A DNA stretch of 64,000 bases from Branchiostoma floridae (lineage: Eukaryota; Chordata; Leptocardii; Amphioxiformes; Branchiostomatidae), in contig NC_049986.1 of NCBI RefSeq assembly GCF_000003815.2, positions 13,815,579 through 13,879,578 of the forward strand, read 5' to 3'. Of the stretch, positions 46,953 through 63,766 are shown piece by piece. The notes below the pieces were generated by a model that saw only the letters and a list, made by a program, of their open reading frames with translations, ran no database searches and was not told where the DNA came from. The position numbers were made by a program, and so were the translations under genes. How positions within the stretch are numbered: position 1 is the first letter of the stretch; every line of letters begins with the position of its first letter.

Positions 46953-48064
46953 ACAAAAATAACTAGGTAACAAGTTACTAGGCTAAAATCCGAACCTACT
47001 ATAGCTGCCAAAACTCTTCATCGTCTTTCTCAAGTCTGCTTAAAAGGACAGAGACTCAGCAACGTTTGTATACCGGACTAGTTTAATAGGTGTGTTATAT
47101 TTACTTCCTTGGTTGATGTCATCACTAGTGCACTAGAAATATGCAATGTCAGTATGCAATGTCAGTGGATTTGATTGATTAAATATCAAGTGAGCGTAAC
47201 TTGTGACTAGTTTCTTTACGAGTTCTTTATTTTGCAGGGAGGTTGTCTGTAGAGCTTGCATCAATGCCCTTTACCTATTGATGTCGCTATTAAGATGTAA
47301 TCATGAATGACCATGAAATGAATAATGGTATGTGCTATGTTTTAGATCAATATGACAATGAAAGAGGAAAACATAGGTATCTTGCCACACACATTTCCAG
47401 ATACTTGATCTAGACTTTCCAGTTTGTTTTTATTTTGTTTCATTCTCACTTGTTCAGGAAGCAATGAAATAGACATTAACTTCATACCAGCAAGAAAAAA
47501 AGTTGCAAATTCTTTTTGCAATTCCTGCACTTTGTGAAATGTTATATCAATGCAATGCATGTAGTTGAGTCAGTACTTAGTAATACCATTTATTTGGTCT
47601 TAGTAGATACAATGACTTGTTTGTGAACATGAATTGACCAAAGAGAAGTAAGACGTTTGTAAAGATGGCATTTTAATGTCAACAATCTTATGATACCTTT
47701 TTATATAAAAACTGATATTTTGTAAACTAACTTGTTACATTTATCCTATAGCATAATACTCTTGTGTTAAAAACAACTTTCAAATATAAAAAAAATAAAC
47801 AAGAGTTCAGTTTGATACTGAAACCTTATATATAAGGCTAAAACAAAACTTGGATGCTTAAGTGCTACATCACATCTGGCTTAAAAAGCAACGCCCTATT
47901 ACATGTACTGGTCCACGTAGCGCAATGATACTGAAACCTTACATATAAAACTAAACTTGGATGCGAAAGTGCTACATCACATCTGGCTTAAAAAGCAATG
48001 CCCTATCACATGTACTGGGCCATGTAGTGCGATGTTCCAGTCAGGTGTGGGAATCTGAGCTAAT
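46953..48064. other. Spacer between NOS1AP promoter region and copy A
   Basis: No supported gene. From about 47066 on it is the downstream flank of copy A and matches the downstream flank of copy B (51555-52407), including GATTTGATTGATTAA and AATTCTTTTTGCAATT words; part of it is probably 3' UTR. Confidence 0.6.
47814..48038. repeat. 113-bp tandem duplication in copy A 3' region
   Basis: Two adjacent copies begin GATACTGAAACCTTA at 47814 and 47927 and continue through GTGCTACATCACATCTGGCT and a CCCTAT-ACATGTACTGG word. Copy B has the corresponding sequence only once (about 52273-52382), so this is a local expansion in A, probably in its 3' UTR. The second unit ends about 28 bp past the first base after the stop codon on the minus strand. 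Confidence 0.8.
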
Positions 48065-51000
48065 TCACATGACAGCGCATGTTTCACGTTCCTCAGGGTC
48101 ACTGTCCACATCACTCTCCGGCGTGCACGGGCATTCAAATATACCCCAGTGGCCTGCAAAGTAGCACCTGTTGCATATCTGGAAAATACAATGACTTATG
48201 ATTAATTAGTTGGCTGGTTAGATAAAGGTCATTTTGCTTAGCAGTGATGCCCAGAAAAGCCTTACGCAGAAATCTTGTTAATTCACTTACTTTATTTTAT
48301 TACATAGTACATAAGGTAGACCATGCAGATTATGAATTCTGAAGCAGTAAAAGTCCAGGGGCAATGCGAAGCAGTCATTGCCATACTACATTTTCAAAAT
48401 CATTTACATATATAGAAAGCTTGTGAAAGTAACAAAGAAAAAGGAAAGCAAAACATCAGTCATCATATATAATAATCTACATAATGGTTACAATTGTTGA
48501 TAAGAAACACTTGCAATGCTACCTCACAATGGTCACTCCTGTAGTCGGCACAAAAGCGACACTTCTCACAGTGGTACCTCGGACGTTTCTCCTCATCGAC
48601 GAAGCGGTTCCAGCACCAGGAGAACTGCCACTCATAGCCACATTCTTCTCCAGGACATTGGGCCACCCCAGGCAACATATCCTTCAGCTGGATGTGGATA
48701 AAAACATCAAGGAGAAGTCACAAACGTTCCTTTCTACAATTCAAAGAAATGGGCCATGGGTGTAGATTTATTTATTTACTTCTGTTTCTTTACTAGTATA
48801 CAGGGTTGACACACTCAGTACTTTGCACACTGCTTTCAAGGCGTGCCCTGTACAGAATAACATACACAAAATAGCATAACAAAGAAATCAGATAAACTAA
48901 ACAATGAAAAAAAACAAAGTAATAATATATACATAAACATATATCAAAATCGTAACTCAAAGTTAGTGACGGGTCAGGAAATTTTAGTGCAGCTATGCAA
49001 AATCACCTGTTACCTCCATCTTTCATTATTGCAATACGCAACTAGCTAATCTAGCAAGGCCTAATAAAATATTGTGTCTCCATTTACCCACCAGACCCCA
49101 GCAAAAACCTGCCCAAAACTAGCCTTTTCTTTTGGGTTGACAAAACAATTTTTTACTGATTCCATGAAGTGGGGTCTTCCCCATGAGGCCATGATCCCCT
49201 AATATGTACTGTAACTTAGAAATTCTGGTCTTCAATGAACAGATATTGTCTCTTGTCATGAACACATCATTACTGACCTGTACAGACTCCTCACAGCACT
49301 CCAGTTCATAACTCTGCTCCAGGCGACCTCGCAAATCTTTAACCTGGACAAGGGTACAAAAATAGAAATACAAATTCTATTGAGGTATAATTTGATCATA
49401 CTGACAATGTCATATGTGTTCTTCTTAACAGCTGAATTTGGGTGCTGCTGAAGTGCCTGATGTACCTTGAAGATGTTGTCCATGAGACATGCGTCCTCGG
49501 CTGCATCTGACAAGTCGATGTTATACTCTGCGAGGATGTTGAAGGGGTTTACGCAGCCCATACACTTGCAGGAGTCGTCACAGGCCTCCCCCTTCTTGCC
49601 ACAGGGACATTTTCTGCAACAACAGTCAAGAAGTTTAGATACCTTTTCAATAAATGTTTTATTCTACATCAAGTGCAGAAAGTATACAATTCAATTCAAA
49701 CTTTAATTCAAGATCCCAAAAATGTGCTTTTACTTGTTTTAATTATCCTATAACTATAGCCTATAATTTAGGATTCAATTAGGATTTAACCATGGTCAAT
49801 ATTGATCAAAGCAAGGAGGTTAAAATCTTGATTTTAACCTCCTTGATCAAAGGAGGCCATGTACATGTATATAGCCTCATAGGGATATTGGAAACATCAA
49901 ACTTGACTTGAGCTATGACACAGATGGAGATGATAGTCACCTTGTCCTACAGCTTCCGATACAGCTGCACTTTGGCTCTGGGGCCTTGGGAGGGCTGGGC
50001 TTCTTCATCTTGGGCTGGGTGGGCACTGGTGATGGACACACAAATCATTTTACTTTCATGGCACTTATTATGATCATTCTATCAAGTTTTAACATGATCA
50101 AATCAAGATTGTTTAATGTTAGTGTCATCAAAGACTGATTTCACATAAAGCTGTGGAAGACAATGATAGCCTTTCTGGTTTCCTACTAGGCTCAACCATG
50201 GAGGTTGAAAAAGAAACCTCCTTGGCACAACCATACAAATTTATTATAACGTTCGACAAAAAGATTTCCACATTTTTGTTTTGCATTTCTTATGTTCTGG
50301 CCGAAGTGGGCGGGGTTTTGACATCATTTGACACTTAAAACTATCCATAACAAACTTCCCCAGACGGAGAACAGAACGCAATGGAAATTTCACAGCCATT
50401 TCACACTTTGGTTATTTCGCACCACGGCCTTTCAGACAGCGCCTTTGTTTTACATTTATAAGTGTACATCTGGTTTTCATAGTCTATCACTCTATGGCAT
50501 GATTTACACGAGAGAAAAAAACGCGCGTCCTAGGACAGCTTTTTTTCCCGTGTAAAAACGAAAACGACGCGCTGCGGCGCGCAGCAGTGTGGCACATTCG
50601 GAGGTGAGTTACGACGCGCCGCTGTGAGCCTACTAGTACTAACTCACGCTCCCGCCAAATTTCTGATTCAAACAAAATACACTGACTAGAATAGATGTAC
50701 CGATCAGTCCAATCCTTACTGATAGCTTAGAATTCCTATAGGGCCTGTTCTTGCTACGGTTGTTTTGACATGGCCCATCATCAAATCGACGGAAGGACTA
50801 GCAAAAATTGGTTTTGTCTTCCCCCGTAAACACATGATCAATTCTAGCTGACAATATCAGCGATCAGAAATCGGTCAAAAGAGCCATAGAAACTCTCCAG
50901 CCACACAGAAGTTCTACACACGCACATACACTCAAACACACACACATATTCACACACACACAGTACAGTAGACGAAGCAAGGTTGTGCGGGAAAATAAAA

Positions 51001-51115
51001 GAATAAAACTATGTCACTATGCAGTATGCTCCTGCAAGTTTATCGAAATACTTTTCTACACACCTTTGCCCACGGTGTCCGGTTCAGTATCCAGGGATGT
51101 GCGCTTAGATGCCAT
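48065..51115 (-). CDS. CXC-domain zinc protein, tandem copy A, 209 aa
   Basis: Six minus-strand exons: 51064-51115, 49941-50025, 49466-49613, 49278-49343, 48523-48687, 48065-48178; all GT-AG, phases 1,2,0,0,0, open to TGA at 48065. Residues 37-66 carry C-x-C-x3-C-x4-C-x-C-x6-C-x3-C-x-C-x2-C, nine cysteines as in CXC domains (TSO1/tesmin, EZH2, MSL2), which bind three zinc ions as a Zn3Cys9 cluster. A lysine/proline-rich linker precedes it. Residues 128-190 form a second Cys/His/Trp-rich region (CPGEEC, WCW, YHCEKCRFC, DHCEICNRC, CPC) that resembles zf-3CxxC domains (ZAR1, RTP) in layout; that is inference. The C-terminus is acidic. CXC domains often bind DNA, so a nuclear role is plausible. 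I do not recognise the gene. Confidence 0.85.
49812..49845. repeat. Perfect 15-bp palindrome
   Basis: CAAGGAGGTTAAAAT and ATTTTAACCTCCTTG are exact inverted repeats around CTTG, in the intron between exons 2 and 3 of copy A. Copy B lacks it at the matching place. Confidence 0.75.
50504..50640. repeat. GC-rich insertion with inverted ends in copy A intron 1
   Basis: TTTACACGAGAGAAAAAAA (about 50501-50520) and a complementary TTTTTTTCCCGTGTAAA (about 50541-50557) form an imperfect inverted pair, followed by a GACGCGCTGCGGCGCGCAGC block. Copy B has no equivalent at the matching place (before TCACGTTCCCGCCAAATTT). Probably a copy A-specific insertion; type unknown. Confidence 0.45.
50917..50962. 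repeat. CA-rich microsatellite
   Basis: Interrupted CACA tract (cacacgcacata...cacacacaca) in intron 1 of copy A, right after the region equivalent to the transposon target site. Confidence 0.8.
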
Positions 51116-51310
51116 GATGAGACAAAAGAGGAAAGTTGAACAGATGTTGAGAGAGAAAAACAAGACGCTTCTGAGAAACACCCGTCGTGTCCCGCTTCTT
51201 CTTCTAGAATGAAAATTGGCGCGAAATCTTACATCTAGTCTAGGTGCATTGTGGGATCGGGAGAAAGTCACAAGCTACCGAGCCTCCCATTGCCATATAT
51301 GGAAATCCTA
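51056..51310 (-). promoter_or_regulatory. Promoter of copy A with E2F-like site and CArG box
   Basis: Upstream of the copy A start are TTGGCGCGAAA (51216-51226, E2F-type), GCATTGTGGGA (51246-51256) and CCATATATGG (51293-51302, a perfect CC(A/T)6GG CArG box). The same three words occur in the same order upstream of copy B. Factor names come from consensus knowledge only. Confidence 0.5.
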
Positions 51311-52407
51311 CGGTCATTTATGAGTAGAGTAGAGTAGACTTCTTCGGTTTATAGGTACGAGTCTCGCTCCAGTAGTTTTCTTTCTTTCGCACCAAATTCA
51401 ATGACCAAACAAATGACAGACATCTAGAGGCCAAATATTCTAGCGAGGCTCGGGCGATTTGCGCAGAATCGTCGTCCGATCGATTTTCGCCACTGATGTG
51501 ACAGGGGTATAATAGGGACTCAGCAGCTATAATAGGTTTGGTATACTAGTAGGTTTGGATACCAGGCTAGTTAGGTGTATAGTTAACATTTAACTTCCTT
51601 GGTTGATGTATATCACTAGTATAGTGCACTAAGATATGCAATGATGTCAGTGAATTTGATTGATTAACGTTAAATACTTGTATCAAGTGAGTTGAACTTG
51701 GGGAATGTATGTAGAGCTTGGAATACTGCACTCTTTCATTAGATGTCGCTACCAAGATGTCATATTATCAATTATGACAACAGATCCAAAGGAAAACTTT
51801 TGTATCTAGCCACACACACTTCCAGATACTACATAACTGTTACTTTCCAGTCTGTCTTTATTTTGTCTCGTTCTCACTTGTTTGGGAACCTATCACACCA
51901 GCAAGAAGAATGTTGCAAATTCTTTTTGCAATTTCTGCACTTTATGAAAAGCTATATCAATGTAATGTCAATGTTAGTAAAGTCGGGTCCCATTTTCAAT
52001 AACATGTTGTTGAATAGTACCATATATTTGGTCTTAATTGATACAATGACTCGTTTGTGAACAAGGATTGACCAAAGAGAAATAGGATGTTGGTAAATAT
52101 GGCATTTTAATGTCCAACAACTTTACTTACATTATACCAGTAACATTATAACTGTTACATGTATAAAATTGATGCATTGTAAACTGGCTTGTTACATGTA
52201 TCATAAAGCATAATAATCATGGCTTTATTAATAACAACAACTTTCAAATATGAAAAAAATTAAAAGTTTGACACTGAACTTTTTAAAGATATAAGGCTAA
52301 ATAAAACTTGAATGCTAAAGTGTTACATCTGGCTTAAAAAGCAACACCCTATCATATGTAATGGGCCTTGCAGTTCGATGTGCCTGGAAGATGCAGGAAT
52401 CTGAGCT

Positions 52408-55400
52408 TTACATAACAGCGCATGTTTCACGTTCCTCGTCGTCACTGCCCACCTCATCCTCCTCCCGGCAGGGGCACGGGAAACCGTAGTGGCCTGCAAA
52501 GTAGCACTGGTTGCATCTCTGAAAAATACAATGACTTATGGTTAATTGGTTGGCTGGTTAGGTAATGCCATTTTGCTTAGCAGTAATGCCAGGAAAAGCC
52601 TTATGCAGAAATCTTGCTAATTCACTTACTTTATTTCATAAGCTTGTACATAGGGCAGACTATGCAAATAATGAATTTTGAAGCAGTGATAGTCCATGGG
52701 CGATGTTAACCAGTCATTGACATATTATAATTTCAAAACCATTTACATCCAAAGCTTGTGAAGGTAACAAAGAAGGAAAAAAAGCCTTAATGGTTACAAT
52801 TGTTGACAAGAAACACTCGCTTACATCACAATGGTCCCCCCTGTAGTCCCCACAACGGCGACACTTCTCACAGTGGTACCTGGGACGATACTCCTCATCT
52901 ATGAATCGGTCCCAACACCAGGAGTACTGCCACTCATAGCCACACTCCTCCCCAGGACAGTGGCACACCCTGGGTAACATATCCTTCAGCTGGATGGGGA
53001 TAAAAACATGTCAAAGTCAATGAGAAGTCACCAACATTCCTTTCTAAAGTTCAAAGAAATGAGCCATGGGTCTTTTACTGCAGCTACGCAAAAGTAACTT
53101 GTTACTTATCTTACGGTGTATCTTTGTGTAAACAAGCCTAACTGTCTCTGTACGTTAGACTGTAGAAACTTTGTAGAAATTACTATCAACTATACTCTAC
53201 TTTGGCCATGTTCTTTTTTTGGACAGGCAAGCCTCAAAACATGTGGACGCCTACTGTTAGATCTACAGTGTGTTTATTTTCCAATCAGTCTACATCTGGC
53301 CCCAGAAGTCAAAATGGTTTTGTACCGGTATCATGTACTGGGACCCATCTCTAACATGTACTGTATGAAAGTCCGGTCTTCAACAAACAGATTGTGTCTT
53401 GTCAAACACATCATTACTGACCTGTACAGACTCCTCACAGCACTCCAGTTCATAAGTCTGCTCCAGGCGGCCTCTCAGGTCTTTTACCTGCACAAGGGCA
53501 CAAAATGAAGTATACTCTGATATTCTCCATACTGACAAAATAATATGTTTTCTTGTCAACTGCTGTATATAATGCTGCTGAAGTGCCAGATGTACCTTGT
53601 AGATGTTGTCCATGAGACATTTGTCCTGGGCTGCATCTGGCAAGTCGATGTTGTACTCCTTGAGGATGCTGAAGGGGTTTACACAGCCAGTACACTTGCA
53701 GGAGTCCCCGCAGGCCTCCCCCTTCTTTCCGCAGGCACATTTTCTGCAGCAATAGTGAAGGTGATGATGATGATGATAGTAAAGAAGTACATCCGTGTAT
53801 CCGTAAGTATTTTACAAAGAGCTTTACTATGTGAATAGTCAAGAAGTTTTCATACCTTTTCAATAAACGTTTTATACTACATAAAGTGCAAAAAGTATCA
53901 ACTTAATATTAGCTTTTCCTTTTTTTTAATCAAGTTTTAAACCTTCAAGTATCAAACAATGGCCTCATCCCTGGGAAGAGATTTCAGAAACATCAAAACT
54001 TGAGCCATGACAAAGATGGAGATGATAAATAATCACCTTGTCCTACAGTCCCCTCTACATCCACACTTTGGGACCTTGGGAGGGCTGGGCTTCTTCCTCT
54101 TGGGCTTCGGCTTGGTGGGCACTGGTGATGGAAACACAAATCATTTTTCTTCCATGACATATCATTTTATCGATTTACGATTATCAAAAGATTTTTAGTG
54201 TCAAACAAAGGCTGATTTCACATAAAACTGTGGAGGACAATCGGAAGGCCAACCTAAGTAATATGGTTTTATATATGGCGATGATAATGATGATTTATAA
54301 AATCAGGTTCTACTTTTTTTATCATAGCAGGCAACAAAAACATGGTTGGCAAACAGTATAACAATTTTTTGACACGATATTCAAGTTCTCAAGTTTATCT
54401 TCTGGTTTCACAGAAATGAATACCTACAATACCTCGGTGGTTATACATAACAATACAATTTGCGCATTTGTACACTATTGTTTTGCATTTCCACTATTCT
54501 GGCCGAAGTGGGCGGGGCTATGACATCATTCACACTTCAAACTTTCCATAACAAACTTCCCCAGACGGTAGAGAACAGAACATGAACACAATGGAAATTT
54601 CGCAGCCATTTCACACTTTAGTCATTTCACATCACGACTTTTCTGACAGCGGCTGTCTACATAAATTTACATACGAAAGGAATGTGTACTCAGATCAACC
54701 TCCTTCATCTAACGTGTTACATCTGGTTTTCATTTACTCGATGACAGCAAATCACGTTCCCGCCAAATTTTTGATTCAACAAAATAGAAGTACAGTAGAC
54801 TAGTTGTACTGATCAGTCCAATTCTTACAGACAGCCAATTCATTGGGCCTGTTCTTGCTACGGTTGTTTTTAATTTATCCACAGAAGGTCGTGATATAAA
54901 ACCAAGGTATAAAAGCTCCTTGATAAAACGCGAAGAAGCAGCAAAACAAATTTGGGTTTGTTTTTCCCCGTAAAACTCATGATCTTCTAATCCTAGCTGA
55001 CATATCAGGGATCAGAAAAGAGCCATACGAGCAATCGCTGTTATTGTTTACATCCGGGGTATTCGGCGCACGAGCGCTGACTGGTAGGCAAAAAGCGTTA
55101 GGAGATCAGATTACTAATTAGCATACCGGCGCGGAAGCAGATCGTACTGTTTACGCGAATTTGCGCATTTTCAGCCACGTTTTTATCGCATCCATGGGAT
55201 TTTTTCAGATTTTGTATTTTTTTCACTACTTCTTAGTCTTTTTTTTTTTTTTTCTTGTGTAATATTTTGGGAGAAAATGACCCTTGCCCTCTTGACTTCC
55301 GTCATGTGTTTCCGGTTGTTTTGATTTTCCCGCCGTACGGGCTTTCTGTCATCCGTTCCGGGCTGTTATATTTCTGTTCCTAATGTGGTTTAATTAATAC

Positions 55401-58400
55401 GTTTAATCAATATGAGTTCTTCAAACAGCTACATTAGCTCTTTGGAGCCTAATGACCGAACCAGGTATTTTGAGAAATTAATGGTAAGTGTCGAAGACGC
55501 CGGCGATAGTTCAAACCCGGAAGTGACTGGTTCGGCGGTGACTGGTGACGGTGTACGCCTACCTGACCCATACAGTCTGACAGGTGAGGATCATGTGTAC
55601 ATGTGTTTCTAGATTTTGATAAGGTAGATTTTTGTGTCAGATAAAGGTTACAAAAACATGAGTACGTGTAAATGTGTTTGTTGCTAATCTCTAGAAATTC
55701 TGGCTACGTAACGTTATGTTTATTATCATTTGTATGTTATACAGGTTGGAAGGATGATTTGAGCCTCTGGCCAGATACGGACTATGGGTGCATCTACACC
55801 TACCTAATCGAGGCTCCAGGTCCGTTTAACGGAGAAGCCATGAAAGCCTATAAATCCCTGGAGGCGTACAATCTCTTTATAAGTGGCCATGTGAGGGAGT
55901 GCAGGTACCACCCTATTGGAAAAAATGTGAAGGTCTGCTTCCTTAAGGCCAAGGTTGTGCCAGGTGGGTGTTGGAGTGCATTGGAACAATATTTCTACTT
56001 ACATGTACCTGTAGTGAGAACTCTTGAAGATGAAGAATGAGATGCGTGATTAGTATTTAACTGTCAGATACGTTTTTATATTTACTGTATTATCTTTTTT
56101 TTCTGTTACATTTGTGTTTCAGGACAGAGAGTAACAGAGACTCCTCACAACCCATGGGTGTGTTTGACCAAAAAAGAGGGTTATGTCATGGCAGCTCACT
56201 GCACTTGTATGGCAGGGTAGGTAATATAACTGCATTGACCATCATATCCAAAAAGTCACATTTTTATCTAACAGTGTTCTCGTCAGATGAGGTCCATGGC
56301 AAGAAACAGTTTTAGAAATAATGAAAGTCAAACTAGTACTCACCTGTAAATGTTCCTCCGTATATTTCCAGGGAGGAGCGACCATGCAGTTTGTATGTGG
56401 CAAGATAACTGTCTTAATTTTTTTCCTTGGTTCATGTTCTTGTGCTTGATGGTTTCCAGTTGTATTTGTACCTGTTGCAAATGCATTTCTTCTTGTTGAT
56501 GTTCTTGTTGCAGGTTTTACTTGTTGATGTGTTTCGTTTTCTAGGTAATTTGGAGTTATCAACAGTTCCTGAGAGTGAGTATACTAACACATATCATCAT
56601 GTAGATGTAGATAATGCTAAAAGAAATGTGTATATAGTAGAAATATTCAAATATCACAGAGACTTCCATAATGAGAAGATAAGGCAAATCTTTCATTGTA
56701 CTGTGAAGCTGGCCAACTTATCCGTTCCTTTTACCATTAACTCTAAAATTGCTCCTGACTATAGTACCTATAATGTATACTCATTTTTTGTTATATTTCA
56801 ATGTAGATTGGGAGAGGTCTGCAGCCATGTGGCTGCACTGCTGTTCGCAGTGGAGGCCTCCAGGTCTCTTCAGGAAAAACGGACGTCATGCACCAGCAGA
56901 AAGGCCGTGTGGAACAAATATTACAAAGATAAGGTCTGTTCATATTTGGGCATTATAATTGAGTAGAATTTTTTTCAATGTCTACAATTTTTTTGCCTAA
57001 GTAGACTGTTATAACTTACATTAATGAATGGATTTCTTTGCTTCTACAAAATCATGTGGCATTTACATGTATCCAATTCACAATATATAGCACTACACTA
57101 TAGATTTACAGCAATATAGTAGATGTTCCTAGCCTGGAGTCCAGCCTTGTTGTGCTTTAGTCCACTCCCAACGGTGGCTACCCCGTCAATGCCATGGGGT
57201 AGCGACCTTTGGGAGCGAACTAAAGCACAACAAGGTTGGACTGCAGGCTAAGATGTTCCTCTTTGTAAAGTGTAATATCTGACATGGCCACTGTATAATG
57301 CTTTTTCTCACATATATTATTGATAATTCATTTTGTGGATTATTTCTTTCAGGTTGATCCACAAAGGGCTGAGGACATGGACTTTTCGCACCCTAAACAT
57401 GGAGTCCAGATCAAGAAGGCGCGCCGGAAGCCGCAGTGTGATGTGCCACCACTCAGTGAAGAAGAGGCCGCTTCTGCTTTCTCACAACTGAGGAAGCTGT
57501 GTCCCACTGCCAGTGCTGTCATTAAAGAGGAGGAGGACACAGACACAGCATCAGAAGATGAGTCAGATGTCAACACAGAGACGCTTCCCCCTGTGGTATA
57601 CAGGTCTTGTCATCCAGCCAAAGTCCCTGTTACTAGTGTTAGTGTAGACAGCATCCTTGAGGATGTTCGGTGCAACCCCGAGCAAATCACAAACCTCAAC
57701 AAAGCTACAGTGGGGCAGTCCAAGTCTGCTTTATGGCGTCAGCAACGCAAGGGTCGTGTGACTTCTACATCCATGCATGATGTCCTTCATGCATCAAACC
57801 CCACCACTGCAGTACGGAAGGTCATGCAATATGACTGCAAGGATTTGAGCCAAGTGAGTTAACTGAAAACTAGTACAGTGTACACTTGCAGGAAGCCATT
57901 TTTCGTAGGTAATTAAGGCACACAAAGAGACAACATTACCCTGTATATTGGAACATGTACCATAATAATCCCAGAGCAAGTGTAGCTCTGATCTTTATTT
58001 GGATTTAAACAATACCAGGAGTCTAAATATTTCTGCAAAGTGTGACAGTCTAAATGTTCAGTCAATGCGAGATAGTGTCATATTAGAGATGTAATTCATT
58101 TGTGCTTTCTATGTCAGAAATTCTAAATAGGGAATTTCACTTTCAGGTTCCAGCTATACAATGGGGGATGAAACAGGAGGAGAAGGCAAGGCAACAGTAC
58201 CTGGAAGCTACCTTGTGCATCTGCAAGGATGTGAAATTGGAGGAAGTGGGGCTCATTCTCTACAAGGATTTTCCCTTCATAGGTATAGCTAATTTTGGCT
58301 CTTACTTCAAACTTATGAAGTATAGTACATGTAATTGAGTACCAACTACACAATGTCTAATTGACTTATGATTTTGTTGATGTAACAATGAAATACATGT

Positions 58401-61400
58401 ACTTGTTTTAACAATTGCACTGTATTCGTACCAAGTGAATATGTGCCATTTGCAGCATTTGGCAAGTATCAAAAGTAAGTACATTATGTTCATGTTTGAA
58501 ATATCAGAAACTTTGCCACTAATTTGAACATTACTGTTGTATATATAGGTGCATCTCCTGATGGGATGAGACAGTGTTCATGCCATGGAAGAACTGTGAT
58601 TGAGATCAAGTGCCCATACAAGTACAGGGACATCTATCCTGCTGCAGATCTGTGTCTATCAGATGCCAACTACTGTTTAGATAAGGATTGTAAGCTAAAG
58701 ACAGGGCACAGATATTACACCCAAGTCCAGACACATATGCTGGTTACCGGTGTCTCAACATGTGATTTTGTAGTGTGGACTAATGCAGGCATGGTTGTAG
58801 TAAATGTTCCAAGGGACCAGTCACTGTTAAATGTAATGTTGTCTACATGTGTCCAGTTTGTAAAGTCCAGTCTTATCCCTGAGATACTGACCCACAAGTT
58901 ACAGTGTGGAGACTCTGGAGTAGATGTGACTTTCCAGGAAGATGATGACCCAAACAAACGTTACTGTTCTTGTCAGAAACCAGCATATGGTAGGATGGTA
59001 AAGTGTGATAACAATGAATGTGAGTCAGAATGGTTCCATTACAAATGTGTTGGCATCAAGAGAAAACCAAGGGGCCATTGGTTCTGTCCCAGTTGTCAAT
59101 GCTAAATCCTACTGGACAGTTTGAAATACTAAAAATACTAGTATAACAATAGAAGGCATTTTACAGTTTTATGTCATGTTTTAAAAAACTAATGTAAAAC
59201 AATTAAGAATTGTACTTTGTGGTATACTTATTATATTGTAGTGGGCTTCCCAAAAATTTGTTTTGTGTCCCTTTAACATTTTACCTTCAATCTCAGTATT
59301 TTGATATACAGAAAAGGCCAGCTCGTGCAGACAACATTGCCATTAAAAATTACTTGATTAGCTTTGGAAGTAAGTTTGTAAGAGCCGCACAGATAACAAC
59401 ACTGTCACTGAGTAGAGGGGCAAATGTTAATGGACAGATTTGGCTGAGAATTTGGAAGTTCTTGATTCTTTCAATTGCACGTTCTACATGAATTCTTAGA
59501 GTTGATATCTGTCTGGCATCTTGGACGATACGCCCCGGGAGTTGTTTCCTTCCTGTGGTAAATGGTGGCATAACTAGTGTTGCTCCTTTCAGGGCAAGTT
59601 CCTCAGAAATGGTGAATCCCCGATCTGCCATAATCATATCACCATATTCCACTTTGTTATAGAAACGACTTTTTAGCGTAATGTCTTTATCAGAAATTCT
59701 TCCACCCCAGGAACTGGACAGAAATGACACTGCTCCATAAGGTGTAATACCTACCAGAAATTTGAACGTATGATGGTGTTTGTAGTTACTCCAGGTCTTT
59801 GCTCGGGTCTTTAAATTGTATGGCCTCTCAGTGAAAATCTCTGAGCAATCAATGATGACTCTACAGTTTGAGTATTTTTTTTTCCGAAATTTTTTGGGAA
59901 GATTGCGCTTTACGGTTTCCTTGGACGGCCAATGAATCAGGAACTTTAGTCGGACAGCTAAGATTGGAATACAACGGTTTATGACTTTTGAAACTGTGGA
60001 GGCAGAAACACTAAATCTCAAAGCTAGATCAGCATTTTTGAGGCCTAGTCTCAACTTCATGAGAGTCATGAGTATTTGATCCTGCTGACACATGGACTTT
60101 AGAGGAGCAATGAAATCACTAACAAGTCTAAACACAAACATAAACAGTGCAACAGTAGGTATTCCAGTGAAGAGCTTGCATTTTGCATCTGTGAGATTGG
60201 AGGCTGATGTTGATGATTTCTTGATTTGTTCTTGAAGGTGATCACGTTCTTCCCTAAGGTTGTCAGCTTCACTTTGAAGGGACTCGCAAAACTGTTCCAA
60301 CTTACATTTCTCCTCTTGTACTTTTGTGAGCTGTTCTCTCAGAGTCTCTACACTTTCAGGAAGGGGGTCTCTCAGAGTCTCTACACTTTCAGGAGGAGGG
60401 TCAGCGATCATTTCTTCATCTGAAATAAAGCAAATCCGAAGTTCAATGGAAGTGCTATGTCATTATGAGTGTCATATATCTGAACTGAACTGAATGTTCT
60501 AAACTCTGATTCATATGTATGTATTGTTGTTTCAATATTTTACTCATGCAGGTTGCATGCTTCTCTACTTGATTCACATCTATATCCCCACTCCGAAAAC
60601 CAAGCGGATAAACTTTGTAGCAAGTAGTCTTGTGTGTATGGTATGTGATTCATGTTGAATAAGTGACAAGTGATAGATTTACTTGTTGAGCAAGAATGAT
60701 AGATTAAACTGTTGATCAAGAATTTATATGTTTAGGATTACTGATTGTATCCATTAGACACTTTTCTTATTCCCTCTGTAATGCCCTTACCATTTAGTGA
60801 TGTAGGTGGGGCTTCATTCTCTGATGACACCCGCAGCCTTTTTGCTGCACGCATATACCTGCAAACAATGAAGCATGTTGTAAGTTGTAAATCAAAGTTG
60901 CATGCTTTGTTTCCTACATACATTCTGTTAGCATAGCATTTAGTGATTACTGCTGTGAATGTTATGAAATATAAAACATTTGACTAGGTGTAAACTCTAA
61001 CATGAGTAACTTACAGGATCTTTGTGAGATTTAACTGAATCCTTGGTAAAACTTTCATGGTCATCTTCTCAGGCAAGGAGGTAGAGTATAGCAATGTTTC
61101 ACACAGGCATGAACAGCCTGCCTGCATGAACAGCATGAGCAGTAAATCAAATTTCAATAAAGAAACATTGAAAACCCCAATGTTACCTACCGATCTTTCT
61201 TGGCAACTGGGTTTCTTGAACGATTGCAACTTGCTGAGGTTGGGAGGTTAAACAAGCTTGGGACGTAATCTGGATCTGCAGGGTCTTTAGAAGGGTTCCC
61301 TGCAATGCAAGAAGCAAAGAACTTGTCAGTATTATAAACATGATTTTAAAATGAGCTGGCAATTGGTCTTGTGGTTAGGGTGTAGGACTCATAATCCAAA

Positions 61401-62609
61401 GATAAGTATGAGTTGGAATCCCTGATAGGTCACTTTGTTGTTGTGCCCTTGGGAAAGGTACTTAAACCATACTTTACACCTATTTCCTCACTTCACTAAG
61501 GTGAAAAATGAGTACCTGGCTTCGGCTACACACCTCGGCATGTTAAACTGAAAGAACCCACCACACTTATCGAAAAGAGCAGGGGATCATCCCGGTGTGA
61601 GTGGATCAAACTCCACAGTCTGGTTCTTTCTTTCCCCTGCACTATCCCACAATGGTCCGGGCCAAGGTGGAGGTCTACCCGCTGGGGGCCTCCCCACACA
61701 ATATGCTCCAGTAGGGGCCATCTGGGGGTATTCCCATGTAGATGTAGATGATTTTAAAGACATTTTAAAACATTTGTAGATGTCTTCGTCAATCAGTTAA
61801 GTGATGTACGTTATACTTCTGGTATACTATATATGTATACGTCCATCCCAGATACTTTACCACTATTTATAAGTCAGACCCCCCCCCCTCCCACGTGGAC
61901 GCGCTGTAAAACTTTGATACATGTAACATTAATATTCACTATCCTTGATATGGCATGAATCAGCGACAAAACTTACTTAAGCTTTCCGCAGATGTGTAAC
62001 GAAAAGTACACTATTACATCACGAAAAATGTATTTATGCAAGGGGGACAACAACAAAATATAAAACATATAGATCACAAACCTGAGATGAAATGGTCGCT
62101 GCACACTCTCTCGTGGCCTCGTGGTGTCCACGCCGCGGTCGGGTTTTTCTTTCCCTGCTCAAAATCTGACCTTTTTAAGGCTCTAAGCCATGCAGCCCTT
62201 CGTCCTGGTTCCGCAGGGATTCTAAAAAACTTCTTTCTACTGCCTTTATCCTTCCGGTTAGTACAATTCAGCGCACAACAACTGGTCGGCATGTTTGCGT
62301 TTCCCGCGCGCAACTGGTGGGCGAGGAGGGTTCAGCCCGCTCTCCTCGCCCACCAGCAGCTTTTTGCCTACCATGACGTCACGTGACGTAACCGTGACGT
62401 CAGCGCGATCGCTCGTATAGGAACCCTCCACACACACATACAGGACTCTGGATTTATTTAGCATGGTTAGAACAAACTTCAAGGGTCATTTTTAAGATAT
62501 GATTTGAGTAAAGTATAAAAATTGATCAAGATATTATCGCAAGACTTTTGTACATACCTTTGTCCACTGTGTCCGGTTCAGTATCCAGAGCTGCGCGCTT
62601 AGATGCCAT
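52408..62609 (-). CDS. CXC-domain zinc protein, tandem copy B, 208 aa, transposon in intron 1
   Basis: Six minus-strand exons: 62558-62609, 54037-54121, 53596-53743, 53422-53487, 52825-52989, 52408-52518, with phases identical to copy A and lengths equal except the last (one codon shorter). Starts MASKRAALDTEPDTVDK and stops with TAA at 52408. The nine CXC cysteines lie at residues 37-66, exactly as in copy A, and all Cys of the second zinc region are kept (CPGEEC, WCW, YHCEKCRRC, DHCDRCNQC, CPC). By eye about three quarters of residues match copy A. Intron 1 (54122-62557) contains a complete 7.39-kb transposon, so the pre-mRNA must be spliced across it. No frame damage seen; both copies look functional. 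No known gene recognised. Confidence 0.83.
55412..59105 (+). CDS. Transposon-encoded SWIM-YqaJ nuclease-PHD protein, 601 aa
   Basis: Seven plus-strand exons: 55412-55583, 55745-55963, 56123-56216, 56807-56933, 57353-57853, 58147-58282, 58549-59105; GT-AG junctions, in phase throughout, stop TAA. Domains: a SWIM zinc finger at about 157-169 (CTC...CSH), an acidic/serine linker (about 255-275), a YqaJ/lambda-exonuclease-like fold from about 370 (WGMKQEEKAR, then SPDG with D421, then EIKCP with E435 and K437, the metal-binding core), and a C-terminal PHD finger (554-601; CSC, KC, HYKC, CPSCQC). The YqaJ family are 5'-3' exonuclease or recombinase-type nucleases; the PHD finger usually reads histone tails. 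In ISL2EU elements this is the second protein; its exact role in transposition is not established. All nuclease motif residues are present. Confidence 0.88.
57121..57260. mobile_element. 121-bp foldback MITE with 9-bp target duplication, nested in the transposon
   Basis: Element 57130-57250 begins TAGCCTG and ends CAGGCTA. The arms are near-perfect inverted repeats of about 53 bp, with CCTTGTTGTGCTTTAGT on one arm and its complement on the other, around a small loop. The 9-bp sequence AGATGTTCC directly precedes it (57121-57129) and follows it (57251-57259). The duplication length suggests a Mutator-like origin by general knowledge. It lies in intron 4 of the YqaJ gene and so leaves the reading frame intact. 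Confidence 0.85.
59350..62292 (-). CDS. THAP-DDE transposase of the ISL2EU-type element, 485 aa
   Basis: Four minus-strand exons: 62082-62292, 61191-61299, 60791-60858, 59350-60419, phases 1,2,1; no internal stop. Exon 1 is a THAP C2CH zinc finger (starts MPTSCCALNCTNR, ends VCSDHFISG), which recognises the element ends. Exon 2 continues with the typical PSKDPADPDYVPSLF segment, exon 3 is basic (MRAAKRLR). Exon 4 has a coiled coil (about 133-200) with a small internal repeat (PESVETLR twice), an LTDAKCKLFTGIP helix-turn-helix entry, and a DDE_Tnp_4 catalytic domain with D320 (VIIDCSE), D395 (MADRGF) and E442 (HVERAIERIK). I start at the Met of MPTSCC rather than seven residues upstream, because THAP domains begin at or near the first Met. 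Catalytic residues and zinc ligands are all present. Confidence 0.9.
61352..61760 (+). mobile_element. tRNA-like SINE in the transposase intron 1
   Basis: The left part resembles a tRNA gene: a box A-like TTGTGGTTAGGGTG (about 61369-61382) and a box B-like GAGTTGGAATCCC (about 61410-61422). It continues with TTGTGCCCTTGGGAAAGG, the sort of core seen in deuterostome SINEs, and ends in a GATGTAGATGATTTT tail near 61758. Ends and target duplication not fixed. It does not touch coding exons. Confidence 0.6.
62314..62356. repeat. Perfect 15-bp stem-loop upstream of the transposase start
   Basis: CTGGTGGGCGAGGAG (62314-62328) and CTCCTCGCCCACCAG (62342-62356) are exact inverted repeats with a 13-base loop. 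In an mRNA from the transposase promoter this GC-rich hairpin would lie just 5' of the THAP start codon. Confidence 0.85.
62359..62416 (-). promoter_or_regulatory. Transposon right end with paired CRE palindromes
   Basis: Between the inner inverted word and the terminus are two perfect TGACGTCA palindromes (62374-62381 and 62395-62402) with CACGTG overlapping the first (62380-62385) and a TGACGTAA half-way variant. They sit about 80-110 bp upstream of the transposase start. TGACGTCA is the consensus CREB/ATF site. The left TIR lacks these words, so they are likely to be a promoter for the transposase rather than a transposase-binding signal. Confidence 0.6.
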
Positions 62610-62999
62610 TCTGACACAACAACGGAGAGGATTTTTTTAACAGATGCTGAGAACGTCCTTGCTGAGAGAGTGAAAAACAGTTTTACCAGGAGACTTCTGA
62701 CACACGTCTTGCCGGTCTTAGTGCTGGGTCTGGTCTGGGTCCCGCTTCTTCCTCCAGAATGAAAATTGGCGCGAAATCTTATATTGAGGTACTAGGTGCA
62801 TTGTGGGACCATGCCAAATATGGAAACCCTCTTGCCATATATGGAAGTCGCTGGGCGGGGCCTAACTCCCACAATGCATCTCGACATAAAGTTCGCGCCA
62901 AGTTTCAGTTTTGGACCATTCGGACGAGACAGACGTTCATACTGCAACTTCCTTGTAAATTTGTTTTCTTCTGTATACATTCACTTGAGTTGGCTCAGA
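62610..62999. promoter_or_regulatory. Palindromic bidirectional promoter between copy B and gene C
   Basis: The starts of copy B (62609, minus) and gene C (63000, plus) are 390 bp apart. The middle is an inverted repeat: E2F-like TTGGCGCGAAA at 62766-62776 and TTCGCGCCAA at 62892-62901; GCATTGTGGGA at 62798-62808 and TCCCACAATGC at 62867-62877. Between the arms are two perfect CArG boxes, CCAAATATGG (62814-62823) and CCATATATGG (62835-62844), and a GC box GGGCGGGGC (62853-62861). No TATA box. Confidence 0.65.
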
Positions 63000-63766
63000 A
63001 TGGCACCCAAACGCGCAGCTGAAGATACAGAGCCAGGAACAGCGGGGATTGAAGCAAGGAGGTTTTACCGGCAAACCTCTAAAGGTAACGTTGCGTGAAA
63101 AAATCTGACGAAGCTTTCTAGTGCATAATTTTGCTCGACATGACCTTGCTAACATTATGTAACGTTATACATTGTATTCCACTTATTTACACACACTAAA
63201 ACCGGAGTTTCATTATAGAATACTATACAATTGTATCTTTTCTGATGCTTACAAGTTACTGAGGGAAATTTATCTTTAGTTTCTATCACGGCCTTATGTC
63301 GATAATGATGGAAAGATAGTTTGACAATTTGACAGTTCAGAATCAGAATGTAACGTTATATTTTCGTGAGATTCAGAATGCACATGGACATTGATTTTGA
63401 GAAATTTTTGCCTCCTATAAATCGCGACTGAGCGAAGGTGCTTTACTGGCACTTTGTCAATTTGTATCTAACGGTTATTGATATAGCCTTCAACACACAT
63501 AAGCGCGCGACGCGGCCGACAGCAGGTTATTTTAGTACTGAACAGGTTGTCACGCCTAACCGTTGCCAATCTTAGTATTCTTACTGCAAATGTTGTTTGA
63601 AGCTATCTAGTGAGGATGCGCCTAGTGTACAAGTACTTGGTGGCAGCGAATTCCAGTCAGTGACAGTTCTATAACGTTAACGGTTAATACACATTTTTAG
63701 GCTGCAGAATCGTCAACACGATGAGGGCGGCAGTCCAATCGAAAGAAGAAGAAGCAGATCTGTCTG
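63000..63766 (+). CDS. Gene C, first two exons, divergent partner of copy B (partial)
   Basis: Exon 1 63000-63084 (85 nt) begins MAPKRAAEDTEPGTAG, clearly related to the MASKR..LDTEPDTV starts of copies A and B, but continues IEARRFYRQTSK. Donor GTAACG. Exon 2 63701-63766 (66 nt; acceptor ATTTTTAG, donor GTAAGT) joins in phase 1 and reads on without a stop (...RIVNTMRAAVQSKEEEADLS). The rest lies beyond the right edge, so whether it has the CXC domain is unknown. The start Met is chosen because it matches the A/B start and lies just after the palindromic promoter. Exon 2 is supported only by splice sites and open phase. Confidence 0.6.

Follow-up and report, generated by a model that had tools for sequence, protein, structure and literature searches.

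A transposable element of 7390 base pairs (bp), located at positions 55027–62416 of a 64,000-nucleotide stretch of contig NC_049986.1 of the lancelet Branchiostoma floridae (this whole stretch is referred to here as the window), is probably a complete, potentially autonomous cut-and-paste DNA transposon of the ISL2EU type, and of an animal host. The partner of its transposase ends in a plant homeodomain (PHD) finger of the type found in the ING proteins, which suggests, on the basis of sequence comparison, that the element may read histone marks in order to choose its landing site. Both of the genes of the element, together with the finger, are conserved in a second, distant element.

The boundaries of the element can be read from a tandem duplication within the window, in which one of the duplicates (copy B) contains the element, and the other (copy A) retains the empty site, uninterrupted, as GAGCCATAGAAAC at 50881–50893 on the plus strand. 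The filled site (55020–62424) reads GAGCCAT, followed by the left end of the element, ACGAGCAATCGC, and closes with the right end, GCGATCGCTCGT, followed by ATAGGAAC. When the flanks of copy B are joined with a single AT, they give AAAAGAGCCATAGGAACCCTCCA, which rebuilds the site whose counterpart in copy A is AAAAGAGCCATAGAAACTCTCCA, as part of a longer collinear alignment. The 7390-bp limits claimed in the original prediction are thus upheld by the empty site of copy A and the collinearity of the alignment through the junction, whereas the claim that this site proves a 2-bp AT duplication (putatively at 55025–55026 and 62417–62418, both on the plus strand) was too strong. A duplication of this type, with element ends of ACGAGC, is compatible with the site, but the absence of any duplication, with longer ends of TACGAGC (TACGAG...CTCGTA), fits equally well and cannot be told apart from it, given that the two schemes predict identical filled and empty sequences. 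As AT is its own reverse complement, a single site leaves the length of the duplication undecided. The empty site of copy A may also have arisen through precise excision from this copy, rather than copy B having received the element once the duplication had taken place. The terminal inverted repeats are 12 bp in length, with 11 of the 12 positions identical and one mismatch (ACGAGCAATCGC at 55027–55038 on the plus strand, and ACGAGCGATCGC at 62405–62416 on the minus strand), and an exact inverted match of 15 bp (15/15), TGGTAGGCAAAAAGC, lies 43–55 bp inside each end of the element, at 55082–55096 on the plus strand and 62359–62373 on the minus strand.

The element contains two convergent genes, whose ends are 244 bp apart. 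The partner gene (55412–59105, plus strand) has seven exons (55412–55583, 55745–55963, 56123–56216, 56807–56933, 57353–57853, 58147–58282, and 58549–59105), which encode 601 amino acids, and the transposase gene (59350–62292, minus strand) has four (62082–62292, 61191–61299, 60791–60858, and 59350–60419), which encode 485 amino acids. Both are predicted models, in which the splice sites were picked from the open frames and the continuity of the domains, and in both of them all the introns are GT-AG. The 3264 coding bases of the two models, including the stops, contain no internal stop codon. At the base composition of the element, the chance of finding 600 and 485 codons without a stop is approximately 2e-17 and 4e-14, respectively, and these values understate the true chance, because the frame itself guided the choice of splice sites.

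The predicted transposase matches the Pfam models THAP (3.3e-13), HTH_Tnp_4 (2.5e-17), and DDE_Tnp_4 (3.2e-42), with a DDE triad assigned by motif to D320, D395, and E442, and a stretch resembling a coiled coil between the THAP and the helix-turn-helix (HTH) domains, to which many coiled-coil models respond, none of them reaching its cut-off. The coding exon of this gene also contains a 33-bp tandem duplication (94%) at 60335–60400, which produces an in-frame repeat of approximately PxPESVETLRD.

The partner protein is recognized by the Pfam models YqaJ (3.7e-19) and Viral_alk_exo (2.1e-08), and its SPDG, EIK, and YxxQxQ motifs align with those of a solved exonuclease, 3syy (E 8.4e-06); the alignment with R354 (E 3.1e-04) is partial, with no clear match to EIK. 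A SWIM-like CxC...CxH motif is found at residues 157–169. The C-terminal 53 residues (58944–59102, plus strand) form the ING-type PHD finger, which has its best match in ING4 (2vnf, E 1.8e-19), with 26 identical residues out of 48, and the zinc ligands and most of the cage residues kept. All 20 of the PDB chains that match the finger at E ≤ 1e-10 are from ING1–5, YNG1, YNG2, png2, or PHO23, the last two presumably also members of the ING family, and the PHD fingers of other families match it far more weakly, from 1.7e-05. The present finger differs from those of ING1–5 and YNG1–2 in its setting, a transposon gene in which it is joined to an exonuclease. The finger lies in the same uninterrupted exon as the SPDG and EIK motifs (open frame 58500–59105), and it is therefore not an artefact of splicing.

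A second element was recovered when the GTDB contigs were scanned with exon 7 of the partner, which returned a single relative (L001), a contig of 3616 bp with the title of a metagenome-assembled genome of Candidatus Poribacteria; the scan of the same contigs with the transposase returned no relatives. Both genes are found on this contig, arranged tail to tail as they are in the window. The partner is 40% identical to that of the window over residues 306–600 (E 1e-72), and the transposase is 39% identical over 348 columns (E 4e-73). When three GT-AG introns are removed, the L001 partner reads through 620 residues with no internal stop, its start being cut by the end of the contig, which stops short of the regions in which the inverted repeats or the THAP domain could show. 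Two of these introns match those of the window in both place and phase (phase 2 in HCTCMAG|GEVCS and phase 0 in K|V), and the third has no equivalent in the window gene, just as four of the six introns of the window partner are absent from L001. A bacterial origin of this contig was considered and rejected, given these three GT-AG introns, two of which share their position and phase with introns of the window. The bacteria of the Poribacteria are symbionts of sponges. The contig is probably DNA of an animal host that was placed in a bacterial bin, and it may represent the occurrence in a sponge of a superfamily that is said to be absent from the sponges. In the description of the PHIS superfamily, to which ISL2EU belongs, the sponges are named among the groups without these elements (PMC4482050).

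The conservation of the partner is uneven along its length. The identities between the two elements are 82/151 in the N-terminal region, which includes the conserved SWIM-like motif, 22/90 in the linker, 66/170 (39%) in the nuclease, and 32/52 (62%) in the finger, and the better conservation of the finger in comparison with the nuclease is read as the result of a stronger constraint. The two fingers have 30 of 48 residues in common, and each has 25–26 of 48 in common with ING4 or ING1, which would fit a single old capture, without proving it. The possibility that a PHD exon had simply strayed into the model from a host gene was rejected, as the finger shares its uninterrupted exon with the nuclease motifs and recurs in L001.

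The association of the finger with the nuclease was also compared with a control set of 81 YqaJ loci, formed by L001 and the best 80 of at least 211 relatives that were recovered from IMG/VR by a scan with the two-sequence alignment of the exon. At E ≤ 1e-3, the YqaJ region is matched by every one of the 81, and L001 is the only locus with a match to the finger, the N-terminal/SWIM region, or the transposase. At E ≤ 10, the loci other than L001 yield 18 short and scattered rows for the PHD, SWIM-region, or transposase queries, which are read as chance matches, the best of them for the PHD having an E of 0.033 over 22 residues. In two of the loci (L069 and L071), the match extends as far as residue 170 of the query exon and had seemed to reach into the finger, but their reading frames close before any finger is encoded; in one of the 81 loci, the frame is cut by the end of the contig. 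With no match in any of the IMG/VR loci, the viral YqaJ exonucleases of this sample, the best 80 of at least 211, lack the finger. The scans of IMG/VR with single proteins gave no confirmed relatives, and the scan with the transposase alignment gave no relatives.

The content of the element agrees with the published description of ISL2EU, in which two genes, a transposase with THAP, HTH, and DDE domains and a YqaJ partner, are accompanied by an AT at the insertion site (PMC4482050). The THAP-DDE transposase with a YqaJ partner that the original prediction had proposed is in this way supported by the Pfam matches of the two proteins, and its family assignment by the agreement in content with the literature, and the prediction recognized the partner correctly while overlooking its ING-type PHD finger and SWIM-like motif. 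Some features of the element depart from what is usual for ISL2EU. Its ends are ACGAGC, whereas the inverted repeats of ISL2EU usually start with GG, and its target, at this one site, is C|AT|A, instead of A|AT|T, according to the same description (PMC4482050). The element is also longer, at 7390 bp, than the ISL2EU mean of approximately 4840 bp, and its inverted repeat of 12 bp is within the range of 6–259 bp given there (PMC4482050). The GG ends, the A|AT|T target, and the mean length are not treated here as defining ISL2EU, and the placement is one of content, rather than of a phylogenetic tree. The ING-type finger and the SWIM-like motif set the partner of the present element apart from ISL2EU, and the main text of the description uses neither the word PHD nor the word zinc (PMC4482050). 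No description of a PHD finger in the YqaJ partner of ISL2EU was found among the open-access papers listed, which do not include the Repbase Reports or the greater part of the subscription journals, and an unnamed entry with this architecture may well exist in InterPro or another protein database.

In the structure of ING3, the cage that receives the trimethylated lysine is formed by Tyr, Ser, Met, and Trp, and the contacts with arginine 2 of histone H3 (H3R2) include Asp and Glu (PMC5000080). The finger of the window retains three of the four cage residues (Tyr, Met, and Trp), together with both of the H3R2-contacting residues, Asp and Glu, and there is a roughly even chance that it reads histone H3 trimethylated at lysine 4 (H3K4me3). 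A number of observations count against this. The Ser of the cage is replaced by Ala in the window and by Glu in L001, in which the Tyr of the cage is Phe and the Glu that contacts H3R2 is Thr, with Met and Trp kept, and the window has a Lys where ING3 has a Gly involved in a contact through the backbone. The window finger scores 21 bits with the Pfam PHD model, below the cut-off of 24, and that of L001 is only at the cut-off, and the identification of the PHD therefore rests on the comparison with the ING proteins and the pattern of zinc ligands. Similarly, the Pfam SWIM model gives 13.6 bits, below its cut-off of 19.6, and the AlphaFold2 model of exon 7 alone has a predicted local distance difference test score (pLDDT) of 38, which is too poor for use.

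The mechanism envisaged for the element involves the binding of its ends by the transposase, which would use the THAP domain for this purpose, and the cutting and joining of the DNA by the DDE site, with insertion at AT. The partner is a PD-(D/E)XK exonuclease of the YqaJ/viral alkaline exonuclease type, with a SWIM-like zinc motif and the C-terminal ING-type finger. In the likeliest reading, its nuclease would process the ends during the transfer or the repair of the donor site, and the finger would tether either the nuclease or the whole transposition complex to H3K4me3-bearing nucleosomes at the promoters of active genes.

The position of the insertion is of interest in this context. The right end of the element is 141 bp from the end of the putative first coding exon of the interrupted copy of a host gene (62558–62609, minus strand), whose ATG and GT donor are common to copy A, and the element would therefore seem to be placed in the first intron of this gene. 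A paralogue transcribed in the opposite direction has its start at 63000 (plus strand), so the element seems to sit beside a two-way promoter. H3K4me3 would be expected at such a promoter. This position fits a guided insertion, as a single case, but one insertion near a promoter, which is itself inferred, proves no preference.

The finger may also serve some purpose other than targeting, such as a role after transposition, in which it would hold the exonuclease at the breaks or alter the acetylation of nearby histones, or it may mainly stabilize the partner. Its fusion to the nuclease, rather than the transposase, would be in keeping with this, as would the work of the ING proteins in acetyltransferase complexes (PMC5000080), and the position near a promoter slightly favors targeting, with nothing else to separate the two. 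An exclusively non-targeting role is thus a serious contender, albeit a doubtful one, and an action of the finger after the insertion, or at the repair of the donor site, is equally open. A further alternative is that the partner is dispensable and that the transposase suffices, as in the related Spy elements, most of which encode a transposase alone (PMC9179366), and the role of the additional open reading frames (ORFs) in PHIS transposition is described as unclear in another paper (PMC4482050). This is improbable, considering that the N-terminal/SWIM region, the nuclease, and the finger are all conserved in L001 above the level of the linker.

Given the open state of both multi-exon genes, which had been foreseen and is borne out in the gene models, the element is potentially active, in so far as this can be judged from its sequence. 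The recent activity that had also been suggested is not borne out, however, given the presence of two mobile-looking inserts in its introns. The first of these, in intron 1 of the transposase, is a sequence of 397 bp (61351–61747, plus strand) resembling a short interspersed element (SINE), between perfect 11-bp repeats, ATGATTTTAAA, at 61340–61350 and 61748–61758. As the scan of the window for tRNAs found none, the SINE label rests on inspection and on these flanking repeats. The second, in intron 4 of the partner, is a foldback (hairpin) element at 57130–57250, between perfect 9-bp repeats, AGATGTTCC, at 57121–57129 and 57251–57259. Rfam gave three matches, of which two are to microRNA models and fall on this hairpin, and the other is to FTX_2 (E 0.56); all are below the thresholds of their families, and are not read as RNA genes. 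Each of the nested inserts either arrived after the element or is carried by its family, and both weaken the case for recent activity. An inactive resident copy, with genes that look open in an element that has long been unmoved, would account for these inserts, as well as for the lack of a second copy of the element within the 64-kb window, and is a real prospect, if somewhat short of even, the main difficulty being the 3264 coding bases, which the model reads without an internal stop.

Just inside the right end of the element, upstream from the start of the transposase, there are three TGACGT repeats (62374, 62384, and 62395; 62374–62402), spaced 10–11 bp apart, two of which form the full TGACGTCA, and which may be elements of the promoter of the transposase. 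The two sites of TGACGTCA found in the 64-kb window are both in this right end, a count that is not, by itself, above chance, given that 15 of 100 shuffles reach two.

The tandem duplicates that surround the element (47064–51256 versus 51553–62808) align in eight BLAST segments, each 120 columns or more in length, with 67–83% identity, which indicates that the duplication is real, but not young. Three related gene starts (MASKRxxLDTEP / MAPKRAAEDTEP) are found in this region, two in tandem (47064–51256 and 51553–62808) and one divergent (63000 onward), and both of the tandem copies have cysteine-rich, CXC-like ORFs. The host gene of copy A has a weak match to MSL2-CXC (20.1 bits, below the cut-off of 26.7), and that of copy B has no match to this model, and for this reason the gene is left unnamed.

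In functional terms, RAG2 is the nearest case of a system that would work in a similar way, with the PHD-bearing ORF1 of certain long interspersed elements (LINEs) as a second precedent. Like RAG1-RAG2 and ProtoRAG, the present element combines a DDE transposase with a partner protein, a likeness of function rather than of membership, and the opposed gene order of RAG/ProtoRAG is a further resemblance. The RAG transposase family and the fold of its partner are unrelated to ISL2EU. The PHD of RAG2 binds H3K4me3, a functional PHD is reported for the RAG2 of the sea urchin, and the ProtoRAG of amphioxus is described as being without one (PMC8355894). The ORF1 of the CR1/L2 LINEs, which differ in being retrotransposons, carries a PHD that has been proposed to help target integration, and the top matches given for it in the part of the source available (2vpb, 3lqh, 3zpv, and 1wep) are not among the 20 PDB chains matched by the finger described here (PMC4120745).

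The element also bears on the conflicting reports of ISL2EU in amphioxus and of PHIS in the sponges, without settling either: ISL2EU was not detected in amphioxus by one paper, although it had been listed by an earlier one (PMC9179366). The conservation of the finger between distant elements, better than that of the nuclease, would point to a concrete role for the partner gene, the reading of histone marks. A broader scenario, in which a lineage of transposons long ago captured an ING-type reader in its nuclease partner, and lands beside active promoters marked by H3K4me3, in parallel with RAG2, is tentative and rather unlikely. If true, it would provide, beside RAG2, a second example of a DNA transposon system with a reader of methylated H3K4, in hosts perhaps as distant as the lancelet and, if L001 is DNA of the host of a symbiont, a sponge.

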